The notes below the pieces were generated by a model, which worked only from the letters and a program-made list of their open reading frames with translations, was not told the DNA's origin and searched no databases. DNA of 34,318 nt from Rhodospirillaceae bacterium (GTDB taxonomy: Bacteria > Pseudomonadota > Alphaproteobacteria > UBA828): NCBI GenBank assembly GCA_018666805.1, contig JABIXB010000216.1, positions 1 to 34,318 on the forward strand, given 5' to 3'. Of this stretch, positions 23,903 through 33,209 are shown piece after piece (positions within the stretch are counted from its first letter, which is position 1; every line of letters starts with the position of its first letter). The position numbers and the translations under genes were made by a program.

Positions 23903-24226
23903 TTATTCGCTAATCGTGATCACCAGCTTCATCTTCGGATGAATGGCACAACGAACCTCGGCAGCGCCGGCGCGGTCGAAGGAGATCGTGTTTCTGTCGC
24001 CCGGCTTTTGCTTTTTGATCTTGAATTCCAGGCCGGTTGATTTCGAATAAACATTGTGGCGCGTCTTGTCGTCGTTCACGAAAATGATGCTGTCGCCGAC
24101 ATTGATGCTAATCTCTGACGGGCGGAATTTCTTTCCCTTTTGCGAAACCGTGTAGTCTGTGCCGGCAATGGCGGCAAGCGGCATGAGAAGAATTGCCAGA
24201 GTAGTAATTGAAAATAGAGGTCGCAT
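23903..24226 (-). CDS. Secreted cupredoxin (plastocyanin/MauL-like)
   Basis: 107 residues. A signal peptide (about 1-22, hydrophobic core ending AAIA-G) leads to one cupredoxin domain. Blue-copper ligands are visible as H57 (TRHNVYS), C93, H96 and M99 (C-x2-H-x2-M). FRPSEISINVGDSIIFVNDD is the usual N-terminal strand pair. It would act as a periplasmic electron carrier. The ATG at 24226 has GGGAGA upstream and leaves a 22-bp gap after the P460-like gene; an upstream in-frame start at 24265 would overlap that gene and spoil the signal peptide. The neighbour is a haem protein, so the two may pass electrons to each other. Confidence 0.9.
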   Translation of the reverse strand: MRPLFSITTLAILLMPLAAIAGTDYTVSQKGKKFRPSEISINVGDSIIFVNDDKTRHNVYSKSTGLEFKIKKQKPGDRNTISFDRAGAAEVRCAIHPKMKLVITISE

Positions 24227-24248
24227 AAATTTCTCCCGGCGCGCCGGA

Positions 24249-25046
24249 TTAATGAACGCCAACACGGTATTCGTCCGGCAGAAACATCATATTATCGTCC
24301 TCGTCACCGGCAATGATATGGCAGTCATTGCAAAATTGCTGTATCGCCGCTTGGTCTTGCAGCGCACCATTCGGCAGGATCATGGCATAAGACCAATCGC
24401 GCCGCTCCGGAAAGCTGCCGGGCGCGTGTTTCTCCATGATGAACAACGGCCCGACGCCGACACGGCCATCTTGAGATAGGACGAAACTCTCCTTAACGGC
24501 GATTGTGCCGGGCGCCATGTCGCCGGCTTCCTCGTAATTGCCATAATCGCGCCCGGTTTCGTTGGTGTAATTATTGACGTAGCGCAGGCCATGCGCATCC
24601 GAGAGATAGGGAGCTGTGCTGTAGCGCATCCAGCCGCGGTATTTGCCGCTTAAGGAGACGCCCGATTTGCCGTATGCGGCAATGAGATCATCCTTGATGC
24701 AATCGAACGCGGCGGCGGCTTCACGATGGCTGAGCTCGGGCGTTGCTGCGCCGGCGCACGGGCTGCATGGATTGCAAGCGTGGCAGGGCGCCGCTTCGGC
24801 CAGTCTCGGAACGGCGCAATCGGTGGCATAGTTGGCGCCTGCTGCGCAGGGGTTGCACGGGCCACACGGGTTACACGACGCGGCGAGTTGAAAATCCTGC
24901 GGTTTGGCAATAGCGGCCGGATTGTGGCGCGTCGTCGTCGTTTGGTCAGCCGCCTGCACGGAGGACCAGACCGTGACGCTTGCCGCTAAACCAACGAACG
25001 CAGGAATGGCGCTGGAAGTGAATAGCCTACGCTTGTCGATTTGCAA
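24249..25046 (-). CDS. Cytochrome P460-like protein with NPC-type cysteine clusters
   Basis: 265 residues. N-terminal signal or anchor region (hydrophobic about 10-33), then a Cys-rich linker with two four-Cys clusters spaced every three residues: C58/C61/C64/C67 (CNPCGPCNPC) and C88/C91/C94/C97 (CHACNPCSPC), with C77 between. The rest (about 105-262) follows the cytochrome P460 pattern: a W-x-x-Y-x-x-A motif, HGLRYVNNYTNE, a G-T-I-A-V-K-E-S-F strand, RRDWSYAMILPNG, and the c-type haem motif CNDCH (C239, C242, H243) near the end. P460 proteins oxidise hydroxylamine or belong to the related cyt c'-beta group. The start is TTG with GGGGAG about seven bases upstream. The Cys clusters are not part of standard P460 and their role is unknown. 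Confidence 0.8.
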   Translation of the reverse strand: MQIDKRRLFTSSAIPAFVGLAASVTVWSSVQAADQTTTTRHNPAAIAKPQDFQLAASCNPCGPCNPCAAGANYATDCAVPRLAEAAPCHACNPCSPCAGAATPELSHREAAAAFDCIKDDLIAAYGKSGVSLSGKYRGWMRYSTAPYLSDAHGLRYVNNYTNETGRDYGNYEEAGDMAPGTIAVKESFVLSQDGRVGVGPLFIMEKHAPGSFPERRDWSYAMILPNGALQDQAAIQQFCNDCHIIAGDEDDNMMFLPDEYRVGVH

Positions 25047-30540: not shown

Positions 30541-31146
30541 ATGCCGCATCCGCTGCAAAATCGCGTCACGCCGTTTGGCGAGATTGTCGCCGTAACCGAT
30601 CGTGGCACGATGATGGGCAACCGCGGCGGCTGTATTCATGATGGCAAGCAGAAGCTAGGCCGGCGGCGCTGGGCGTCGCGCCGTTGGATATGCTGTCTGC
30701 TCAGTTTCAAGGGTTGGCACCGTGAAGTGATGACGCCCGGGCGCTATACCGAGCTGTTCTTTCTCGACGAGGCCACCGCGTTTGCCGCCGGCCACCGCCC
30801 GTGCGCCGAATGCCGGCGAGCCGATTACAAAGCATTTCAAGCAGCCTGGCAGCGCGCCGATTTACCGGCGGAAGTGAAAGCGGACGCGATGGATGTGGTG
30901 CTGCATGCCGAGCGCACCGGCACGCGGCGGCAAACGGTTGTGGCGCGCGATATGCCGGATGGCGTCCTGCTGGCGCGCGGCGAAGCGGCCTATCTGGTTA
31001 AGGGCGGGCGCCTCTTTCGCTGGAGCTTTCAGGGTTATGGCGCGGCCAGTGATGACGGCGCGGCGCTATCCCTTCTCACACCGCCGGCGTTGGTGAAAAT
31101 ATTCGCTGCCGGCTTCCGGCCCGGCATTCACCCGTCCTGCGATTAG
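30541..31146 (+). CDS. Conserved-looking protein of unknown function with CxxC
   Basis: 201 residues. I cannot name a function. Visible features: an N-terminal GNRGGCIHD stretch, an Arg/Trp-rich strand (GRRRWASRRWICC), PGRYTELFFLDEATAFAAGHRPCAECRRADY with a CxxC that could bind zinc, and a C-terminal basic/hydrophobic domain. I have an impression of having seen this pattern as a widespread uncharacterised family. The gene follows the PLP enzyme by 22 bp. Its stop codon overlaps that of the convergent molybdoenzyme gene (shared bases 31143-31146), so no room is left for a terminator between them. Confidence 0.85.
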   Translation: MPHPLQNRVTPFGEIVAVTDRGTMMGNRGGCIHDGKQKLGRRRWASRRWICCLLSFKGWHREVMTPGRYTELFFLDEATAFAAGHRPCAECRRADYKAFQAAWQRADLPAEVKADAMDVVLHAERTGTRRQTVVARDMPDGVLLARGEAAYLVKGGRLFRWSFQGYGAASDDGAALSLLTPPALVKIFAAGFRPGIHPSCD

Positions 31147-33209
31147 GCGGGTTTAACCCAGACGGACGTATCGTGGAACACCGCGCCGCCGACCGGCCCG
31201 GCGGGGTCAGCCGAGGTCAGGGTGTTGACGCCGAGGCCGTTCTCAAAGGCGCCGTTCGGCCAGACTGATTCGATCACCACAACACCTTGTTTCTGGCCGT
31301 TCTCGGCGATGCGTGCCGGCAGCGTGATCTCGCCCAGCATGTTGCCGACCCTGAGACGCGTCCCTTTACTGACACCCATTTTCTTGGCGTCAACCGGCGC
31401 CAGCAGGATCGAGGGCTTGTCCTCGCGCTTTATCGAGGTCTCGGTCTCGGTGAAACTTGTATTGAGGTAATTATGCGCCGGTGCGGTGACCAGGCGGAAG
31501 GGATGCGCCTCGTCGCTCGCGTCAATCGCCTCGCAATAGTCGGGCAGCGCCGGCAGGTCCGGGCCGGTGGTGCCAATCGCCGGCCAATCGACCCTGAAAT
31601 GAAATTTCTTGTCGTCGGTCTTGAAGCCACTGAGGAAATGCGCGTCGTCAAAGCTTGGCGCGCAATCGTACCAGCGCATCTCATTAACCGCATCGGCGCT
31701 CGGCCAGCCGGCGCCAAGGAAGATGTCGTCGATCATCTGCCACACGCTCATATCGAAGCCGCGATGTTCCGCACCCAGGCGTTTGGCCAGTTCGCAAACG
31801 ACGAAATGATTGTCGCGCGCCTCGGCGAATGGCTCGATCATCCGGGCGCCGACCATGACATGGCTGTGCCCGCCGGCGAGATAGAAATCGTCATGCTCGA
31901 GAAATGTCGTGGCGGGGAGGACGATATCGGCGAGCTTGGCCGTATCGGTCATGAATTGCTCGTGCACGGCGAGGAAAAAATCCTCACGCCGCAGGCCGGC
32001 ATTGACTTTGGCCGATTCCGGCGCGACCACGGCCGGGTTGGTGTTTTGCATGATCGTTGCTGTGACCGGCGGGCCGTTGCCGAGGTCGGCCTTGTCGCCG
32101 GTTAAGACCGGGCCGATGCGCGACATATCGAGGACGCGGATATCGGGGTCGAGCGCGTCCAGCCCCTGCAGCAGGGTTTTGTCGTAATCATAGAGGCTGC
32201 CATTGCTGAAAAACGCACCGCCACCCTTGTGCCGCCATGCGCCCGTCACTGCCGGCAGGCAGGTTGCTGCATGCATGTTGGCGGCGCCGTTGCGCGTCCG
32301 GGTAAAGCCATAGCCGAGGCGCAGGAAGCTGCGCTCAGTGCGGCCATAGAGGCGGGCGAATTCTGTGATCTCCTCGATCGAGAGACCGGTGATCGGCGCC
32401 GCCCAGTCCGGACCGCGCGCCGATAAATGCTGCTCCAATTCGGGCGGAAAATCGGTGAATTCGGAAAGATAATCGCGGTCGGCAAGACCCTCACGAAAGA
32501 GAATATGCATCACCGCGCAGGCAAGCGCGCCATCGGTGCCGGGCCTGAGCGCGAGGTGGAGGTCAGCCACCTTGGCTGTCCGTGTTTGATAGGGGTCGAT
32601 TACCACCAGCTTGGCGCCGCGCTCTTTCCTCGCGCGGCTGATATGGGTCATCACATTGACCTGCGTCGAGGCCGGATTGACGCCCCAACAGAGAATCAAA
32701 TCTGATTCAGCCATTTCGCGCGGATCGCTGCCCATACAGGCGCCGACGCCGGCTGAATAGCCGGCCCGCGCGGTCGACGAACAGATGGTTTCTAATTGCC
32801 CCGAATAGCGCTTCACATTGCGCAGGCGGTTGAGGCCGAAGCGTTGCACCAGGCCCATGGTGCCGGCATAGAAATAGGGCCAAACCGCTTCGCTGCCATA
32901 GCCTTGCTCGGCCTTGAGAAAGGCTTCCGCTACTTCATCCAGGGCATCGTCCCAGGAAATCTGTTGAAATTCACCGCTCGCTTTGTTGCCGGTGCGCCGT
33001 AAAGGATGCGCCACGCGGCCAGGATGATGTATGCGCTCGGCGTAGCGCGCGACCTTGGCGCAAATCACGCCGGCGGTGTAGTCATTGTCGCGCGCGCCGC
33101 GCACCTTGCCGATTGTATTGGCGTCGAGCCGCTCGACCTCAAGCGCGCAGGTGCTCGGGCAATCATGCGGGCAAACCGTACTGACATAGGTGCTCGCGGT
33201 GGATGTCAC
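31143..33209 (-). CDS. Molybdopterin-dependent oxidoreductase (formate dehydrogenase/DMSO reductase family)
   Basis: 688 residues. The [4Fe-4S] site is C13, C17, C21 and C50 (C-x3-C-x3-C-x28-C). Mo-bisMGD motifs include the GVNPASTQ, VIDPYQTRTAKVADLHLALRPGTDGALACA and VLPATTFLEHDD blocks, plus a C-terminal molybdopterin dinucleotide-binding domain (about 575-688). The metal ligand is likely near ICSSTARAGY (about residue 145), with Cys or Ser possible; no UGA selenocysteine codon is seen. No TAT signal peptide is present, so it is cytoplasmic. No small subunit or electron-transfer partner gene is adjacent. The start is GTG with GGAGAG upstream. Substrate unknown. Confidence 0.9.
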   Translation of the reverse strand: MTSTASTYVSTVCPHDCPSTCALEVERLDANTIGKVRGARDNDYTAGVICAKVARYAERIHHPGRVAHPLRRTGNKASGEFQQISWDDALDEVAEAFLKAEQGYGSEAVWPYFYAGTMGLVQRFGLNRLRNVKRYSGQLETICSSTARAGYSAGVGACMGSDPREMAESDLILCWGVNPASTQVNVMTHISRARKERGAKLVVIDPYQTRTAKVADLHLALRPGTDGALACAVMHILFREGLADRDYLSEFTDFPPELEQHLSARGPDWAAPITGLSIEEITEFARLYGRTERSFLRLGYGFTRTRNGAANMHAATCLPAVTGAWRHKGGGAFFSNGSLYDYDKTLLQGLDALDPDIRVLDMSRIGPVLTGDKADLGNGPPVTATIMQNTNPAVVAPESAKVNAGLRREDFFLAVHEQFMTDTAKLADIVLPATTFLEHDDFYLAGGHSHVMVGARMIEPFAEARDNHFVVCELAKRLGAEHRGFDMSVWQMIDDIFLGAGWPSADAVNEMRWYDCAPSFDDAHFLSGFKTDDKKFHFRVDWPAIGTTGPDLPALPDYCEAIDASDEAHPFRLVTAPAHNYLNTSFTETETSIKREDKPSILLAPVDAKKMGVSKGTRLRVGNMLGEITLPARIAENGQKQGVVVIESVWPNGAFENGLGVNTLTSADPAGPVGGAVFHDTSVWVKPA

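Follow-up and report, generated by a model that had tools for sequence, protein, structure and literature searches.

A cysteine-array cytochrome P460-family protein encoded beside a cupredoxin in an alphaproteobacterial genome

According to a 2025 review, hydroxylamine (NH2OH) oxidation by cytochromes P460 requires both a lysine-heme cross-link and a distal carboxylate (i.e., Glu96/Asp102; PMC11928373). NsP460 of Nitrosomonas sp. AL212 has the cross-link, carries Ala in place of the carboxylate, and is inactive (PMC11928373, Table 2). Bufferins are Sec-exported, Cys-rich RiPPs that chelate copper, and a few of them occur as fusions with cytochrome c and FGE-type domains (PMC12452194). Judged by titles and abstracts, the papers retrieved on P460 together with cupredoxins concern ammonia oxidizers and encapsulins. 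Open-access literature searches returned nothing for the Cys array presented here, for P460 in combination with cysteine-rich, FGE, or Rhodospirillales, or for DUF6969, and no description was found of the array with its recurrent neighbors (i.e., SUMF1-like genes, DUF6969 genes, and array peptides). On the basis of this literature, the array gene cluster is apparently undescribed.

The window (i.e., the whole stretch of 34,318 nucleotides that was analyzed) carries two ORFs on its minus strand, where the initial annotation had placed them. The first (24249 to 25046, minus strand; 265 amino acids) encodes an apparently exported Cys-array protein of the cytochrome P460 family, as assigned by profile, model, and Foldseek; its TTG start lies 5 nt downstream of an AGGGGAG ribosome site. 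Signal peptides were called by eye, and a Sec signal peptide is predicted for residues 1 to 32 (24951 to 25046), with a KRR n-region and an SSVQA/ADQ end. The two C-x2-C-x2-C-x2-C clusters and the C-terminal CNDCH described in the initial annotation are present in the protein. Cluster 1, CNPCGPCNPC (C58, C61, C64, and C67; 24846 to 24875), was identified by sequence, orthologue comparison, and a DNA pattern scan; cluster 2, CHACNPCSPC (C88, C91, C94, and C97; 24756 to 24785), was identified by sequence and orthologue comparison. A single Cys77 (in DCAVPRL) stands between them and opens a C-A-V-P-R-L element (residues 77 to 82; 24801 to 24818) recognized from the arrays of relatives. The P460/c'-beta domain (residues 103 to 265; 24252 to 24740) contains the C-x2-C-H heme c attachment site (F238-C239-N-D-C242-H243; 24318 to 24332), as seen in sequence and alignment. 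All of these features lie on the minus strand.

The second ORF (23903 to 24226, minus strand) encodes an apparently exported, amicyanin-like cupredoxin of 107 amino acids, on the basis of profile and alignment. Its ATG at 24226, which is preceded by GGGAG, follows the P460 stop by 22 bp, exactly the spacing first reported; a GTG start listed at 24265 is less likely. The surrounding genes have no evident link to the pair. The gene upstream of P460 (25183 to 26739) had DUF945 as its sole match, just under the family cut-off, and the window also encodes a CHASE2 sensor histidine kinase (292 to 2637) and a molybdopterin oxidoreductase (31143 to 33209), again with no evident link to the P460/cupredoxin pair. 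Going by the sources of its named relatives, the host is marine.

Profile, fold search, and homology all place the heme domain in the cytochrome P460/c'-beta superfamily. The window protein scored 22.9 to 24.3 bits against Pfam PF16694 (E ~1e-4), under the 27-bit cut-off; two P460 paralogues in the window's own genome exceeded this cut-off, and all 23 aligned members matched PF16694 at E ≤ 0.01. A profile built from the relatives matched 7s5o and 7ead in the PDB at E < 0.01 and 8gar and 2je2 weakly. In the AlphaFold (AF2) model, pLDDT was mostly >90 in the heme domain and 35 to 64 in the Cys part, which is thus modeled with low confidence. The top 16 Foldseek matches of this model were all P460/c'-beta proteins (9 at E ≤ 1e-3; best, 7ead), and the CxxCH heme site (C239-x2-C242-H243) occurred in 107/107 aligned rows. 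Thus, the P460-type domain proposed in the initial annotation, which had been made to depend on profile searches, is supported by the match of the window protein (E = 1e-4) and by those of its relatives. The protein is predicted to be exported and loaded with heme.

Lys185 (24492 to 24494, minus strand) aligns with the heme cross-linking Lys70 of Nitrosomonas europaea P460 and is invariant among the relatives (107/107); a lysine-heme cross-link is predicted from this alignment. A bridge alignment with diverse P460s from across the phylum, in which the M-x-K motif served as the anchor, matches Phe202 (24441 to 24443, minus strand) to the distal carboxylate, which is Glu96 in N. europaea P460; 104 of the 107 relatives have Phe there. 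One HMMER alignment (to 7ead) placed Glu205 at this position instead; Glu205 was set aside as the distal carboxylate after the bridge alignment. With its conserved cross-link Lys and the Phe at the carboxylate position, the window P460 appears to resemble the "halfway-house" P460s.

These residues bear on the action on hydroxylamine that was initially suggested for the protein. A classical P460 hydroxylamine oxidase, which would pass its electrons to the cupredoxin and detoxify NH2OH or NO from neighboring ammonia oxidizers, would agree with the P460 family membership, the invariant Lys, and the adjacent electron carrier. It would also agree with the result of a search of the window's genome (a draft assembly) for ammonia monooxygenase, which gave no match and had no positive-control match; given this result, a detoxifying role fits better than nitrification. 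However, the distal carboxylate needed for this chemistry aligns with Phe in nearly all relatives, and the Ala-bearing NsP460 is inactive (PMC11928373), so the hydroxylamine-oxidase reading is weak and we regard it as unlikely. As a substrate chemistry, the oxidation of NH2OH is less probable, and NO binding is a live rival.

Similarly doubtful is a periplasmic protein that binds or senses NO or another gas and that uses the Cys array as a redox-sensitive signaling or anchoring tail. The nonpolar distal position, as in cytochromes c'-beta and NsP460, speaks for such a protein, as does the fusion of P460 domains to class III nucleotidyl cyclases in an array-less sister group; however, these fusions have no array and form a separate clade, and a cupredoxin or cytochrome c encoded next to the P460 gene is a sign of electron transfer. 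In the fusions, the P460 domain is preceded by a class III adenylate/guanylate cyclase domain and what looks like a membrane segment (L061:1968-3236, L067:4245-5522, L076:4239-5522, and L104:490-1821; cyclase domain assigned by Pfam in L067 and by eye in the other three), and these proteins are candidate periplasmic NO- or hydroxylamine-sensing cyclases.

Sequence comparisons indicate that the Cys clusters of the window P460 are not incidental. The nearest orthologue (L036; domain ~80% identical) shares 8 of the 9 N-terminal Cys residues of the window protein, contrary to the absence from orthologues that the initial annotation had named as grounds for dismissing the clusters. Cys-rich N termini were found in 84 of the 109 related ORFs collected, and a degenerate DNA pattern for the CNPC array matched 2 of 398 sampled genomes of the phylum, while the reversed control pattern matched none; together, these results place the clusters beyond chance. 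Between the window protein and its nearest orthologue, the NG86 dN/dS was ~0.18, a rough value given the 51 codons compared and the saturated dS. In L036, a TGA codon just upstream of 4857 interrupts the frame after the signal peptide and before the Cys array; either this copy is broken or the assembly is wrong here. Intact copies occur in relatives.

More distant relatives have 5 to 88 N-terminal Cys residues, mostly in N-P-C units; the counts cover whole N-terminal frames and may include a few Cys residues before the true start or outside the array, and frames truncated at a contig end are correspondingly short. A spacing of three residues greatly predominates (1,615 cases; next, 398), and the element C-x-[VI]-P-[RG], of which CAVPRL is the window version, occurs in 65 of the 84 arrays. 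L038, the outgroup within the window's subclade, and L037 carry 30 to 34 N-terminal Cys residues, from which we infer that the window clusters derive from a long CNPC array by reduction. The array residues are mostly C, A, P, N, G, and K, with so little His (0.06%) and Met (0.19%) that ligands other than thiolates are hardly possible. This thiolate-only composition, the cupredoxin neighbor, and the analogy with bufferins suggest that the array probably binds Cu(I). The very variable array length argues against the metal reading, since it is not required for a defined metal site. The number of Cys residues was even in 45 arrays and odd in 39 and thus follows no even-number rule, which is a mild argument against obligatory full disulfide pairing.

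In a quick-search tree with SH-aLRT support alone, the array-bearing P460s formed one group of 82 rows (98% SH-aLRT), in a few of which CxxC motifs are scarce or absent. All hosts with a named class were Alphaproteobacteria, and those with a named order were mostly Rhodospirillales. Arrays as a feature of P460s at large were rejected, given their absence from all 28 P460 loci sampled across the phylum, and plasmid-borne spread was rejected with no plasmid matches. Tandem P460 pairs, an array-less copy followed by an array copy, occur in L050, L055, L057, L060, L062, L066, L069, L070, L090, L092, and L107; in some of these loci, cytochrome c genes or an Rrf2 regulator of the SUF type lie close by.

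The cupredoxin identified in the initial annotation proved to be of type 1, scoring 32.1 bits against PF00127 (cut-off, 21.2) and presenting, in alignment with amicyanin, candidate copper ligands in RHNV (His) and CAIHPKM (C-x2-H-x2-M). A cupredoxin gene lies directly downstream of the array P460 gene in all four members of the window's subclade (i.e., the window, L036, L037, and L038), which amounts to one change on the tree. A different cupredoxin adjoins the array P460 in L106, which was omitted from the tree; the pairing is therefore nearly confined to the window's subclade and this separate case. Other array loci encode a class I cytochrome c (the example that was tested resembled c550) or neither carrier. 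Matches to cupredoxins or class I cytochromes c numbered 18 at 0 to 1.5 kb, 3 at 1.5 to 3 kb, and 0 at 3 to 5 kb. Among the 45 array loci for which 2.5 kb was available on either side, taken from the best 80 of 316 matches in one scan and not phylogenetically independent, 13 had an electron carrier within 2.5 kb (cytochrome c, 10; cupredoxin, 3) and most had none, which speaks against the redox unit favored below; SUMF1/FGE-like and DUF6969 genes were neighbors in 25 and 23, respectively.

The SUMF1-like neighbor matched PF03781 strongly, and every member with its C terminus read contained the motif GGSWDD-x-GCG-[VI]-C-R. Its CGVC motif seems to differ from the two-Cys active site of FGE, and a canonical formylglycine enzyme was rejected for this neighbor despite the PF03781 match. 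This gene (L124:526-1413 and ~37 related loci) is usually divergent from the array P460 gene, and DUF6969 (PF22308; L124:1525-2307 and ~40 loci) recurs beside the SUMF1-like and array P460 genes. In several genomes of the window's genus or family, the DUF6969 gene adjoins genes for small secreted proteins that consist of a CNPC array only. Such stand-alone proteins are encoded at L124:2405-2638 (minus strand), L182 to L193, and L125:4486-4878, and in the window's family they mostly have a leader like MIKETVVAVSIVTMAAGAALAPSAVSA; that of L125 lies between a pyridine-nucleotide disulfide oxidoreductase gene and a histidine kinase gene. The occurrence of secreted stand-alone CNPC proteins near DUF6969 and SUMF1-like genes shows that the array is an independent module. 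In the window's genome, contigs C15 and C247 both end inside the array and therefore appear to carry the two parts of this second (array/DUF6969) locus.

A broader reading of these neighborhoods, to which we assign the same low probability as the hydroxylamine oxidase and the gas sensor, is that the CNPC array is the working part of an undescribed periplasmic copper-handling (or RiPP-like) system in Alphaproteobacteria, in which the SUMF1/FGE-like protein, with its near-invariant GGSWDD-x-GCG-[VI]-C motif, and DUF6969 would act on or with exported arrays, free or fused to P460, and the heme with a cupredoxin or cytochrome c would provide a redox step. Least probable of all is a structural array, a disulfide-linked extended stalk by which the heme domain would be tethered to itself, to further array proteins, or to the cell envelope. 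The mostly three-residue spacing, the Pro in most units, the highly variable length, and the stand-alone array proteins as possible cross-link partners speak for such a stalk; the absence of an even-Cys rule and the retention of just two 4-Cys clusters and one lone Cys in the window protein speak against it.

We tentatively favor, at somewhat less than an even chance, an exported two-gene redox unit that combines a P460 heme c protein, a thiolate array likely to hold Cu(I) or another soft metal, and a cupredoxin partner. In this unit, a P460 heme c domain with a predicted Lys-heme cross-link and a nonpolar distal position would be fused to a thiolate-only Cys array. NO-type molecules or similar small ligands would bind to the heme, which would also pass single electrons, in either direction, between itself and the adjacent cupredoxin; the latter would replace the c-type cytochrome seen beside some relatives. 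Periplasmic Cu(I), or some other soft metal, would most likely be bound or buffered by the array, which may also contribute to supplying or protecting the copper partner. Electron transfer, substrate, metal binding, and catalysis of the window P460 are thus all put forward as predictions.

With these sequences, the P460 superfamily gains a large alphaproteobacterial branch in which the cross-link Lys is invariant and the catalytic carboxylate has apparently been lost, and which bears on the role of the "halfway-house" P460s. The array and its recurrent neighbors (i.e., the SUMF1-like protein, DUF6969, and the secreted array peptides) offer a testable link among heme P460, NO-type chemistry, and copper.

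The array proteins resemble the bufferins (PMC12452194) in being exported and Cys rich, in the fusions to cytochrome c or FGE-type domains known for a few bufferins, and in the copper link, which for the array is a predicted one. However, the array motif differs, and the MNIO enzyme (PF05114) is missing among the recurrent neighbors; a search of the window's genome and of 11 genus or family relatives gave no match, while two control genomes were positive. MNIO/bufferin membership was rejected accordingly, since the window array protein is not a bufferin by the MNIO definition. The cupredoxin shares the type-1 ligand pattern and the short C-x2-H-x2-M loop of amicyanin and pseudoazurin, but it scored far under the equivalog cut-offs and neighbors a P460 rather than methylamine dehydrogenase or NirK. 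Cytochromes c'-beta (7ead, 7s5o, and 6hih) share the nonpolar distal residue but have Phe or Met where the array-P460 family has its invariant Lys. The P460s of N. europaea and Methylococcus capsulatus (2je2 and 6hiu; PF16694) share the fold, the CxxCH, the cross-link Lys position, and the c-heme at ~18 to 19% identity over the Foldseek alignment, whereas the window protein has Phe for the distal Glu/Asp, an N-terminal Cys array, and an adjacent cupredoxin (or, in relatives, a cytochrome c). NsP460 (6amg) combines the same cross-link Lys with a nonpolar residue at the carboxylate position, which is Ala in this array-less protein and Phe in the window protein.
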